Assembly: GCF_900113045.1 (NCBI RefSeq)
Contig: NZ_FONY01000003.1
Span: 62,001 to 126,000 of the forward strand
Origin: Thermoflexibacter ruber
Lineage (GTDB): Bacteria; Bacteroidota; Bacteroidia; Cytophagales; Thermoflexibacteraceae
Direction: 5' to 3'
Length of the DNA stretch: 64,000 nt
Under the pieces are notes generated by a model. The model made no database searches. It was not told where the DNA came from and worked only from the letters and a program-made list of their open reading frames with translations. The position numbers were made by a program, and so were the translations under genes. Below are positions 1 to 23,414 of this stretch, piece by piece (the stretch's first letter is position 1; each line of letters opens with the position of its first letter).

Positions 1-125
1 TAGCAATGAGCAATCATCGTAAAATATTGATTTTAAAATACTTAAATAATAGATTATTATATGCGTGTGCGTTTAGAGCCTATATTGGAGGCTTTGGCTA
101 TGGTCAAGGAATGCCAAGAATGAGA

Positions 126-260
126 TTAACAGCAACAACAACAACAAATGTTGTAAAAAGCTATTGGTGCGATGTAAGCAGTGGTTCTAACAAGAAAATG
201 ATAGGATTTTGAAGAATCCGAACTTAGAAGTGAACTAAGATTTTGAAACAGTGTTTTCAT
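126..260 (-). CDS. Polycysteine leader peptide ORF (44 aa) behind a SAM-I riboswitch
   Basis: Reading the minus strand from the ATG at 260 gives 44 codons that end with Asn-Ile followed by six consecutive Cys codons and then TAA (126-128). The ORF begins only 9 nt after the closing stem of the SAM-I riboswitch, so it is the first thing translated on that transcript. The middle reads ...RTTAYIAPIAFYNI; no enzyme family fits. Riboswitches of this class control methionine, cysteine or SAM genes, and polycysteine upstream ORFs are known from mycobacteria as cysteine-responsive attenuators. I infer an analogous leader here. A short hairpin (AGCCT/AGGCT arms) follows the stop, without a clear U tract. 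The regulated gene lies left of the window. Confidence 0.6.
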   Translation of the reverse strand: MKTLFQNLSSLLSSDSSKSYHFLVRTTAYIAPIAFYNICCCCCC

Positions 261-269
261 TTTTAATGA

Positions 270-381
270 GTTTATATTATCCAAAAATTGGACAGGATTT
301 GGCACCGTTCTATTTGAGTAGATGAATCAGAGGTTGCCAGAAGGTCTTAGAGCCTGTTCTCTCGCTTCGTTCTTTATAAAC
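270..381 (-). promoter_or_regulatory. SAM-I (S-box) riboswitch
   Basis: On the minus strand the segment starts GTTTATA and ends TATAAAC, which closes a P1 stem. Between them are the S-box core elements in the right order: GAGAACAGGCTCT, then CTTCTGGCAACC, then GGTGCCAAATCCTG, then a small TCC/GGA P4 hairpin. These match the conserved GGCAACC and GGTGCtAAwTCCTG blocks of SAM-I aptamers. It lies between a good promoter and the polycysteine ORF. Expected role: turning off a methionine/SAM-related gene to the left when SAM is abundant. Confidence 0.88.
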
Positions 382-405
382 CATTCAGTAATTGAATAGA
401 TGATG

Positions 406-437
406 CAAAGATAAATACAAGTTTTGAAATTTTGCAA
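406..437 (-). promoter_or_regulatory. Bacteroidota-type promoter of the riboswitch transcript
   Basis: On the minus strand TTG (437-435), 21 nt, then TATCTTTG (413-406) is an exact fit to TTG-N~20-TAnnTTTG. Transcription would start near 399, just before the riboswitch. Confidence 0.75.
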
Positions 438-476
438 GAAAAAATTAAAAAAATTTCAAAATCTATGCTTTTGATT

Positions 477-1841
477 TTATTTTTTCAAAAATTTGATTTC
501 TACGCGGTTATTATTCATCTCATCATTATTATCTTGTAGAGGTCTGAGGTTTCCATATCCTACAGAAGATAACTGATAGCCTTTTGCCCCTTTGCTCATT
601 AAATATTGCTTGATTGATTCTGCACGTCTTTGGGTAAGTGTCTTGCTTGCGTTGGCATGAATAGTGTTATCGGTATGCACCCCAATTTCTATTTGTAATT
701 TAGGATTATTTTTTAATATCGTTCCCAGCTCATCTAATTCTTCTAAGTTGATTTTATCTAATTCGTTGCTATTATTGCCAAATTTGACGGTTTGGAGTAG
801 ATAGGGCTGCCCTACGAGCAAATTGGCGTATTTTTCAGGAAGTAAGAGAGTTTGAGTTGTATTGGTTGTTTTCTCCATAACTTCTTTTTCTTTGGTAGGC
901 TCGGAATTTTTCTTTTTTCCAAAAGTATAATTGAGCATAATTTCATGAGTGCCGTTGGAGGCTATGCCTATATTCTGATTAGCAATTTCATAGGCATAGC
1001 TTGCTCTAATGTTTTCACTTACTTTGAACCCCATGCTCAAAGCATATCCATAGCTATTGCGATAACCTACTGACAACCATGCTTTTTCCTTCCATTCTGT
1101 AAGCAGGCTTATGTCTATCTGTCCAGGGAAAGTATTAGCAAAACGATAGAGCAAAATAGGCTCAAAAGTGAAATCGCCTTTTTTAGGTTTGATTTTATAA
1201 GAGGCACTCAAAATGCTATGATTCCCATAACGCAAGAAAGCATTGTTTAGGTCAAATTTTTTGCTTGCGCCGCGTGCAAAAAGATGGTGTACAGCCAAGC
1301 CTAATTGCAAGTTGTTGTATGTGTATAAGACGCTAAAATTTCCATCAGGTTGGAACTGGTCGTCGTTGCTGTATAACTTAGGGTCTATGAGGTCTTCGAG
1401 CATCACTCTGTCCCAATTAATGCTACTATACATTACTCCTAAGGATAATCCAAAAGAAAGTTTTTGCTTAGCACTGAGGTTGACAAGGTAAGCATAGCTT
1501 GCCAAAGCACTTGTTTGGGCAATGAGGTTGAGGTTTTCTCTTTTGAGGGTTGCTCCTAAGCCCATTTTTTGGGCGGGTAAGGTATGCTGGTAGGTCAAGA
1601 GGAATGTTTCTGGTGCCCCTTGCAATCCTGCCCATTGGTTGCGATAGATGAGATGTAATTGATTTGCCTCTTGCACCGCAATTTGTGAAGGATTGAATAG
1701 GAAACGATTGAGATAATAATGCGTCATCAAAGGTGCTTGCTGGGCATAAGTTTGTTTAGGAGGGATAAATAACCCTACGCAGATAGAGAGAGCAGAATAA
1801 AACAGAAGAATATTCAAAAAATGGTATTGACGTGTTTTCAT
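477..1841 (-). CDS. PorP/SprF-family outer-membrane protein with C-terminal OmpA domain
   Basis: The 454-aa product has a hydrophobic signal peptide (about residues 1-33, ending near TYAQQ). A PorP/SprF-type beta-barrel follows (about 35-310), with the family's typical start (PLMTHYYLNRFLFNPS) and the RNQWAGLQGAPET segment. The last 110 residues are an OmpA-like peptidoglycan-binding domain (FGNNSNELDKINLEELDEL...HTDN...LTQRRAESIKQYL...GYGNLRP...NNRVEI). PorP/SprF proteins belong to the type IX secretion/gliding set of Bacteroidota; the OmpA tail would anchor the barrel to peptidoglycan. No other T9SS gene is nearby. The start at 1841 is supported by the signal peptide. Confidence 0.85.
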   Translation of the reverse strand: MKTRQYHFLNILLFYSALSICVGLFIPPKQTYAQQAPLMTHYYLNRFLFNPSQIAVQEANQLHLIYRNQWAGLQGAPETFLLTYQHTLPAQKMGLGATLKRENLNLIAQTSALASYAYLVNLSAKQKLSFGLSLGVMYSSINWDRVMLEDLIDPKLYSNDDQFQPDGNFSVLYTYNNLQLGLAVHHLFARGASKKFDLNNAFLRYGNHSILSASYKIKPKKGDFTFEPILLYRFANTFPGQIDISLLTEWKEKAWLSVGYRNSYGYALSMGFKVSENIRASYAYEIANQNIGIASNGTHEIMLNYTFGKKKNSEPTKEKEVMEKTTNTTQTLLLPEKYANLLVGQPYLLQTVKFGNNSNELDKINLEELDELGTILKNNPKLQIEIGVHTDNTIHANASKTLTQRRAESIKQYLMSKGAKGYQLSSVGYGNLRPLQDNNDEMNNNRVEIKFLKK

Positions 1842-21689: not shown

Positions 21690-23414
21690 GTGGCAATCAA
21701 CAAACTCATTTTAGGGGACTGTTTAGAAGTCTTGAAAACGATAGATAGCGAAACCATAGACCTCATTTACATAGACCCACCCTTCTTCTCTAACCGAACT
21801 TACGAGGTGATTTGGGGCGACAAGGGTGAAATTCGCAGTTTTGAGGACAGATTTAGCGGCGGCATAGACCATTACATCGCTTGGCTCAAAGATAGAGTAC
21901 AAGAAATGCACCGCACTTTGAAGCCCACAGGAAGTATTTTTGTGCATTGTGATTGGCACGCCAACGCCGAAATTAAGGTTTTTATCCTCAATAAAATATT
22001 TGGCGAAAAGAATTTTAGAGGTGAAATTGTTTGGCAACGAACAAATGCCCATAATGATGCAAAGAAAAAAATTGCGGTGCTAAAAGATTGTATTTGGTAT
22101 TATTCCAAATCAGAAACTTTTATCTACAACCCCATTTATGCGGCTTACAAAGGTGACTATTTAGAAAGTTCATATCGTTATCAAGATGAAAAAGGAATTT
22201 ACAAGTCAGATGATATGACGGGTGCAGGTATCAATCCTAATGATTTAGAATGGCGAGGTTATCACCCCAAAAACGTTGGGCGTAGTTGGTCTATCAACAA
22301 GGAAGCAGTGATAAAGTTAGTAGGTGAAGAAAAAGCCAAAACAATGAATAGTGCCGAGAAACTTGATTTATTGTATGCTAATGGACTGATAGAAATTACC
22401 AAAAACGGTACGCCAAGATTTAAAAGGTATTTAGATAAAAGCAAAGGGGTTTTATTGGGTGATATTTGGACAGATATAAATAATTTGCAAGCCCAATCAA
22501 AAGAGAAAATAGGCTACCCAACCCAAAAACCCGAAGCCTTGCTTGAAAGGATTATCAAAATGGCAAGTAGCGAAGGCAATACAGTTTTAGACTGTTTTTT
22601 AGGTGGTGGCACAACCGCAGTAGTTGCAGACCGACTGAACCGAAAGTGGATAGGCATAGACCAAAGTGTGCAGGCTATCAAAGTAACCGAATTGCGGTTG
22701 AACAAACAACAAGGTTTGTTTTCAAAGCCTTTTACGGTGCAACTTCATAAATACGATTACGATACCTTGCGTTACAAAGACGCCTTTGAGTTTGAAAATT
22801 GGATAGTAGTTCAGTTTGGCGGATTTGCCAACTCAAAACAGCGAGGCGATTTAGGGCTTGATGGCAGAACGAGAGAAAACCAACCCATACAAGTTAAACG
22901 TAGTGAAAATATGGGGCGAAATGTAATTGACAATTTTCACTCGGCAGTCATGCGTTACGACAAGGCATTGTACGAAAAAAACAAAGCTGAGCAGAAACCT
23001 GTGGGTTTTATCATTGCGTTTTCGTTTGGCAAAGGTGCAGTGCAGGAAGTTGCGAGATTGAAAAACGAAGAAAACGTAATCATCAAGTTGGTAACGGTGG
23101 AGGAAATAGTGCCGATTGCCAAAAAACCAACTTTGCAAGTGGAAATTAAGGACTTGGGAACAAGTAAAAATTTGCGAGAAATTGAGTTTTTAGCGACAGG
23201 ACAAAGCGAAGCAGGAATTGAATTTTACGCTTGGGACTTTGCCTACAATGAACAACAATTTTTGCCGACAGTTTTGCTTGACAAAGAGGGCAAACAGACT
23301 TACAAGTTCAAAGCAGGGGAACACCAAATTGCGGTGAAAGTGGTTGATAACGAAGGACTTGAAAGTTTGGAGGTAGTGAAACTAAAAATAAATAGAGTGG
23401 TAGAGAGAAACTAA
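21690..23414 (+). CDS. DNA methyltransferase fused to a nuclease-like domain and a PKD-like domain
   Basis: The 574-aa product starts at GTG; an in-frame TAA directly upstream (21687-21689) rules out a longer reading. Residues 1-340 are an N6-adenine/N4-cytosine methyltransferase of the beta type: DPPF (29-32) precedes the AdoMet motif VLDCFLGGGTT (299-309). Residues about 365-475 resemble a PD-(D/E)xK nuclease, with Asp387 or Asp391 in GDLGLDG and Gln-Val-Lys at 401-403 (PIQVKRS), after the FxNWIVVQFGG start. Residues about 495-571 look like a PKD/Ig-fold sandwich (EFYAWDF...HQIAVKVVDNEGLESLEVVKLKI), unusual for a cytoplasmic DNA enzyme. No separate restriction or specificity gene is adjacent. 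It may be a single-chain restriction-modification enzyme, possibly acquired. Confidence 0.85.
   Translation: MAINKLILGDCLEVLKTIDSETIDLIYIDPPFFSNRTYEVIWGDKGEIRSFEDRFSGGIDHYIAWLKDRVQEMHRTLKPTGSIFVHCDWHANAEIKVFILNKIFGEKNFRGEIVWQRTNAHNDAKKKIAVLKDCIWYYSKSETFIYNPIYAAYKGDYLESSYRYQDEKGIYKSDDMTGAGINPNDLEWRGYHPKNVGRSWSINKEAVIKLVGEEKAKTMNSAEKLDLLYANGLIEITKNGTPRFKRYLDKSKGVLLGDIWTDINNLQAQSKEKIGYPTQKPEALLERIIKMASSEGNTVLDCFLGGGTTAVVADRLNRKWIGIDQSVQAIKVTELRLNKQQGLFSKPFTVQLHKYDYDTLRYKDAFEFENWIVVQFGGFANSKQRGDLGLDGRTRENQPIQVKRSENMGRNVIDNFHSAVMRYDKALYEKNKAEQKPVGFIIAFSFGKGAVQEVARLKNEENVIIKLVTVEEIVPIAKKPTLQVEIKDLGTSKNLREIEFLATGQSEAGIEFYAWDFAYNEQQFLPTVLLDKEGKQTYKFKAGEHQIAVKVVDNEGLESLEVVKLKINRVVERN

Follow-up and report, generated by a model that had tools for sequence, protein, structure and literature searches.

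The gene and its domains

In the window, the whole 64,000-nucleotide stretch of the Thermoflexibacter ruber genome analysed here, one gene encodes a protein in which a DNA methylase, a predicted PD-(D/E)xK nuclease and a PKD-like β sandwich succeed one another in a single chain (Table 1). A HlyD-family gene and a Beta-lactamase2-family gene occupy its two flanks. The motifs that the preliminary description had quoted for this reading frame are all in place, namely DPPF at residues 29-32, FLGGGT at 303-308, GDLGLDG...QVK at 386-403 and the C-terminal VVDNEGLESLEVVKLKI, and the order of domains it had proposed is borne out by profile searches, fold comparison and conserved residues. Both C-terminal domains are under purifying selection: between the window gene and the second copy in its own genome Ka/Ks is 0.06 for the nuclease and 0.066 for the PKD-like part, with synonymous sites near saturation in parts, and across the nuclease and PKD comparisons it lies between 0.056 and 0.112 where finite.

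Table 1. Features of the methylase-nuclease-PKD gene, in window coordinates.
Feature	Position	Residues	Strand	Basis
Single-chain methylase-nuclease-PKD gene	21690..23414	574 aa	+	GTG start; full-length relatives found
Methylase part 1, motif IV and following	21690..22013	1-108	+	PF01555; median pairwise identity 81% over residues 31-108
Motif IV, DPPF	21774..21785	29-32	+	DPPF in 29/31 complete nuclease+PKD rows
Target-recognition domain (TRD), variable, exchanged between copies	22026..22475	113-262	+	Identity profile, pairwise medians
Motif X, PTQKP	22518..22532	277-281	+	At least 90% conserved in alignments A1 and A3
Motif I, FLGGGT, S-adenosylmethionine binding	22596..22613	303-308	+	Follows motif IV and the recognition domain
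PD-(D/E)xK (Mrr/MspJI-like) nuclease, predicted	22722..23123	345-478	+	AF2 models; VIA-align to MspJI
Nuclease acidic residues (GDLGLDG)	22848..22862	D387, D391	+	Invariant 22/22 (A5), 36/39
Nuclease QxK	22890..22898	Q401-V-K403	+	Q401, K403 22/22 (A5); QVK 36/39
PKD-like β sandwich	23124..23402	479-571	+	Foldseek 6aem, 4l9d, 4tn9; VIA Z 9.8, 9.6, 9.2

Residues 1-345 are a β-class DNA methylase. The profile PF01555 matches residues 23-332 (E 1.1e-45), the PADLOC matches are Type II methylases (best E 6.6e-69), and motif IV, the variable domain at 113-262, PTQKP and FLGGGT follow one another in the β-class order set out for EcoP15I Mod (PMC4490356). Relatives of solved structure found by sequence include CcrM, MboIIA and M.RsrI, to which the fold search adds entries named M.BceJIV. 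When the full-length AlphaFold2 model (22-row alignment, mean pLDDT 81) was compared by VIA-align, M.BceJIV scored Z 26.8 (rmsd 2.9, 244 aligned) and CcrM Z 26.0, and the top full-length Foldseek match is EcoP15I Mod. DPPF is the catalytic motif of amino-methylases; among the 31 complete rows that carry nuclease and PKD (8 further rows, truncated at motif IV, were left out), the two lacking it read DLPP, and both are decayed relatives described below. Because of DPPF and the solved relatives, the product of the methylase is probably N6-methyladenine.

In the model of the C-terminal part (residues 340-574, mean pLDDT 87), the portion behind the methylase adopts a helix-strand pattern of the PD-(D/E)xK type and superposes on MspJI (4f0p_A) with a middling Z of 8.4 (rmsd 3.9, 110 aligned; model 11-138, corresponding to residues 350-477). 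The loop before D387 is poorly predicted, segment 383-385 having a pLDDT below 50 in the full-length model. The MspJI domain is listed as Mrr-cat with the signature (D/E)..(D/E/Q)XK (PMC3874153). At E<=10 the nuclease piece matched in Pfam only DAGAT, at 0.072, below the cut-off and taken as chance, and no Mrr family; among the Pfam and NCBIfam models listed none calls a nuclease here, nor does any among 25 of 66 PADLOC families. As there is no Pfam Mrr match and the MspJI score is middling, the assignment to the Mrr/MspJI type rests on the fold together with the conserved D387, D391, Q401 and K403. Conservation of these residues, which had been named as a check alongside the fold, was counted in alignment A5 (n=22) and in 39 nuclease+PKD rows deduplicated at 99% identity. 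The three of these 39 without QVK are L023, which lies beside a ResIII gene, and L082 and L086, in which the methylase motifs are lost too. A methylase with a dead nuclease was rejected for the nuclease+PKD clade, where 36/39 are intact. The refuting conditions named in the preliminary description, absence of either C-terminal fold or homologues without QxK, thus do not hold for this clade. Two relatives carry insertions in the loop between D391 and Q401 (L001:4992-6845, L006:4980-6758).

The PKD or immunoglobulin-like fold is best known from extracellular proteins, and the window enzyme puts it on a DNA enzyme. The oddity pointed out in the preliminary description is thus real; it is not unique, as the Mod-like relatives L026, L027, L030 and L033 end in similar sequence. 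Structure prediction, the check proposed for both C-terminal folds, gave in the model of residues 340-574 an Ig/PKD-like sandwich behind the nuclease. The seven best Foldseek matches are PKD domains, from Epp, PrtV, ColG and ColH (E 3.8e-5 to 3.3e-4), followed by a glycosidase at ranks 8-9 and by PKD again at rank 10, which extends the PKD range to E 4.5e-4. By VIA-align, PKD chains reach Z 8.4-9.8 (6aem_A Z 9.8, rmsd 2.2, 81 aligned); the top row is the carbohydrate-binding protein 2c26 (Z 10.3), and fibronectin-type modules come up to 9.3. Because 2c26 and the fibronectin-type modules score about equally, "PKD-like" is the safest wording. The window PKD piece had no match in Pfam at E<=10, the family profile matches the ColG PKD in the PDB weakly (E 0.056-0.078), and the decayed relative P0002 scores 25.5 bits with PKD_4 (E 1.4e-5; cut-off 27). 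Residues of the tail are conserved in the nuclease+PKD rows, e.g., W515 in 38/39, G543 in 39/39 and D553 in 37/39. Extra proline/glycine-rich stretches occur in the linker before the tail in L001 (4992-6845) and L003 (4481-6319).

The target-recognition domain

The recognition domain lies inside the methylase, judging from sequence variability, at the usual β-class site. Mean identity falls to 6-43% in bins over residues 106-270, compared with 59-91% elsewhere in the methylase (14 full rows), and the median pairwise identities are 81% for residues 31-108, 30% for 113-262, 80% for 272-340, 69% for 345-478 and 55% for 482-570. Exchange of this domain is directly visible between close copies. L007 and L003 come from one assembly; their identity is 95% in the segment labelled N, 31% in TRD, 99% in MT2 and 96% in NUC, whereas the TRD is 91% identical between L007 and L002; the phage contigs L043 and L044 give 94, 34, 90 and 94% for the same segments. 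The window gene and C102, the second copy of its own genome, share 90 and 80% in the methylase parts, 89% in the nuclease and 94% in the tail, as against 25% in the TRD. Since whole TRDs are swapped on near-identical backbones, the nuclease remains coupled to the methylase when the reading part is replaced, which is likewise the case in the MmeI family (PMC4081073).

These comparisons also bear on the second of the two functions that had been suggested for the tail, dimerization or target recognition. Target recognition is rejected: the tail is fairly constant (median 55%, against 30% for residues 113-262), and the window copy and C102 have nearly the same tail and quite different recognition domains.

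Copies consisting of the methylase only occur at L006:3967-5004 and L014:3517-4602. The one in L006 lies directly upstream of the full enzyme and overlaps it, with 100% identity over residues 31-108 and 30% in the recognition domain. The locus L010:4995-10605 has the enzyme twice, each copy with its own recognition domain, in an apparent V-type ATPase operon, with ATP synthase alpha/beta upstream and V_ATPase_I between both copies.

Genomic setting and spread

The gene had been described as solitary, and the family as a whole agrees with this. Among 176 automatic ORFs (32 of them methylase-related) at 26 family loci, whose flanks are short in many cases, no ORF unrelated to the methylase is common to two family loci, L043/L044 excepted, which are related phage contigs. 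The search thus found no partner gene: the cross-locus matches outside methylase-related ORFs were duplicate copies (L034/L046, L035/L056), the pair L043/L044, and three cases in which a family locus matched one outside the family (L005/L021, L004/L022, L011/L023). The neighbour common to L005 and L021 is UvrB, upstream in both, and is taken as coincidence. A Pfam scan of 20 neighbours in 12 loci revealed no restriction nuclease and no Res subunit; seven had no family, and several were housekeeping genes, including ScpA, UvrB, ETF, GyrA, YceG, V-ATPase subunits and riboflavin synthesis.

L043 and L044 adjoin phage head genes, L044 also a portal gene, and in L011 a phage-type integrase gene lies upstream, one ORF away. 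The spread across the order is patchy, with matches at E<=0.001 in 26 of 291 genomes (22 below 1e-80, two of the decayed form and two weak). In the phylum sample 10 of 395 genomes match, five of them strongly, and members also occur in records labelled Treponema and Alphaproteobacteria, where binning error is possible. In an empty-site comparison, the downstream neighbour of the window gene was absent from the other two genomes of the genus.

Near the full-length gene in both L001 and L004 there is a 322-aa chimera (L001:915-1883, L004:3872-4840), of which the first ~85 residues resemble the methylase family (53-54% identity, DPPF kept) and which closes with an MNT-type nucleotidyltransferase (Polbeta/NTP_transf_2). 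A search with the portion behind the methylase-like residues gave matches at E<=0.001 in 53 of 291 genomes of the order, chiefly to the nucleotidyltransferase, and a whole-length match was found only in G537 and G452, probably the genomes from which L004 and L001 themselves derive. L001 also carries a SMODS/DncV-like nucleotidyltransferase, a CBASS-type cyclase, near the relative (L001:2954-4183), which suggests that the surroundings of L001 are a defence island.

Proposed mode of action and evolutionary links

The window protein is quite probably a self-contained restriction-modification enzyme in which one internal TRD (residues 113-262) steers both the methylase (1-345) and the nuclease (345-478). 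It would methylate host sites and cut phage or plasmid DNA that enters the cell with these sites unmethylated, probably at a fixed distance from the site; a role in defence is likely. Exchange of the TRD would change both specificities at once, so that the gene could diversify and spread on its own. Because EcoP15I Mod divides recognition and methylation between two subunits (PMC4490356), the window enzyme is probably a homodimer by analogy, an arrangement that would bring two nuclease domains together. The PKD-like tail (479-571) would be structural and constant, most likely holding the nuclease in position through an oligomer or domain contact. We infer both activities, their shared specificity, dimeric action and the roles of tail and enzyme from a gene in which the domains, their conserved residues, the exchanged TRD, the solitary setting, purifying selection and relatives beside phage head genes are directly observed. 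Against the self-contained reading it can be held that a β-class enzyme at an asymmetric site may methylate one strand alone; daughter DNA would then be exposed to the nuclease, unless two sites are required for cleavage. If the self-contained reading is true, the family offers a small (~570 aa) single-gene restriction-modification scaffold with natural exchange of the TRD among near-identical backbones, which would make it attractive for engineering and for work on how specificity is encoded.

The single-chain layout is an unusual domain order within a known kind of enzyme, with BtgZI (Type IIC) as the nearest precedent. BtgZI likewise has the methylase first, followed in the same chain by a C-terminal PD-(D/E)xK variant with Q for E, but its methylase is α-class whereas that of the window enzyme is β-class, and the available text of PMC4081073, which names BtgZI as an exception within Type IIC, mentions no PKD tail for it. 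MmeI and Eco57I (Type IIG/IIC) also combine cutting and methylating in one chain and diversify their specificity through one recognition module, which in them is located at the C-terminus or in a separate subunit and not internally (PMC4081073); unlike the window enzyme, they have an N-terminal nuclease and a γ-class methylase (PMC3874165). With its C-terminal nuclease and β-class methylase, the window protein departs from Type IIG as defined in PMC3874165. It is most likely Type IIC in the broad usage of PMC4081073, where a single polypeptide combines methylase and endonuclease: the domains for both are present and their activities are predicted. Among the literature matches listed, most subscription journals and REBASE being outside their scope, there was no paper on a β-class methylase with nuclease and PKD tail.

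It is unlikely that the protein is an orphan methylase, regulatory or phage-protective, whose nuclease fold is a DNA-binding or structural appendage without restriction. Such a role would fit the open frames of L082 and L086, which have lost their catalytic motifs, and the fact that phages carry related genes annotated as methylase alone, but D387, D391 and QVK are kept in 36/39 rows and the nuclease evolves at a Ka/Ks of 0.06. The phage and plasmid relatives speak against it too. Fusions of methylase and nuclease without PKD are represented by L021, L022 and five phage or plasmid genes that were examined (Marinitoga phage MPV1, Streptomyces phage OzzyJ, and Rhizobium, Bradyrhizobium and Cellulosimicrobium plasmid genes). 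Like the window enzyme, the phage/plasmid fusions of PHROG 67 have in one gene a β-class methylase followed by a D..D..(Q/S)VK region, which is readable in all five; they differ in lacking the PKD tail and share about 28-34% identity with the window protein. The annotation of all five reads DNA methyltransferase or methylase, and for this reason their nuclease-like half has been overlooked. In the distant Cellulosimicrobium plasmid relative, a gene annotated as restriction endonuclease lies directly upstream, and therefore not every relative need be self-sufficient. The phage genes L091:2471-4105 and L088:2468-4024, annotated as DNA methylase or methyltransferase alone, carry a D..D..(S/Q)VK nuclease-like half.

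A Type III-like Mod subunit whose Res helicase partner has its gene in another part of the genome is very unlikely. EcoP15I Mod tops the full-length Foldseek list, Mod-like relatives adjoin ResIII genes, and the genome holds 17 matches to the ResIII family, a broad helicase family also present in 14/14 control genomes. The best of these, an 857-aa frame, lies on contig C19 close to a Mod-like frame of 682 aa (L039), and this pair is likely a separate Type III system of the same genome. Yet no Res gene was found beside the window gene or among the 20 scanned neighbours of its relatives, where the sole ResIII match is UvrB; no family neighbour ORF matches the Res genes of L023 and L026; and the nuclease, intact in the window protein, is decayed in the Res-neighboured relatives L023 and those of L026 type. 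Least likely of the readings considered is a modification-dependent, Type IV-like action, in which the nuclease would cut foreign-methylated DNA as MspJI does and the methylase would serve another purpose: MspJI is indeed the nuclease fold in the VIA-align list and shares the Mrr-cat PD-(D/E/Q)xK fold, but it has an N-terminal SRA-like 5-methylcytosine reader (PMC3874153) and no methylase, whereas Pfam and fold searches found no modified-base reader domain (SRA, wHTH) in the window chain.

A Res-like neighbour is common, by similarity, to six Mod-like loci (L023, L024, L026, L027, L030, L033), and its ResIII identity was found for both that were tested, L023 and L026. Like the window enzyme, L026, L027, L030, L033 and, more distantly, L023 combine a β-class methylase with a C-terminal sequence similar to the PKD-like tail; they differ in the adjoining Res-type gene and in a decayed nuclease-like segment, the QVK position being HVD in L026 and its kin (alignment read by eye) and WVN in L023. 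A profile comparison with the Mod-like C-termini (probability 87.7, E 3.4e-6, columns 93-232 only, from thin profiles with Neff 2.2 and 1.5) supports a putative relationship between these C-termini and the tail together with the final elements of the nuclease. For EcoP15I Mod itself no link of its C-terminal domain to the nuclease emerged, 4zcf_A being matched by VIA-align only to model residues 1-356, and no Mod chain was among the best 50 VIA-align rows listed for the C-terminal model. Because the Res-neighboured relatives have a PKD-like end behind a decayed nuclease segment, we raise as a tentative possibility that the family records a transition between restriction by one protein and restriction by two, in which the Mod C-terminal region would be partly a dead Mrr nuclease, kept with PKD as a docking platform after Res took over cutting, or, in reverse, an active nuclease would have made Res unnecessary. 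The window enzyme also points to a way, open to testing, in which Type II-like and Type III-like systems could be connected. On a methylase-core tree of 60 rows, unrooted and with bootstrap not settled, the nuclease+PKD label (31 rows, including L017, a fragment ending before the nuclease) needs 2 changes, compared with a shuffled mean of 20.1; as the root is not fixed, the tree does not give the direction of change.

The two decayed relatives sit on a branch of length 5.47 in this tree, so long that their placement is not trustworthy. L082:4829-6397 (minus strand, 522 aa from ATG) and L086 are open frames from two genomes of one genus and are 95% identical. In both, DPPF has become DLPP, FxGGGT NVKNGR and QVK IIR, while the PKD-like tail stays; they are possibly a co-opted dead enzyme, to judge from these replacements. 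In a sample of 295 genomes of the class, the decayed form as query retrieved at E<=1e-20 only the window gene, its second copy C102 and one further match, a partial one.
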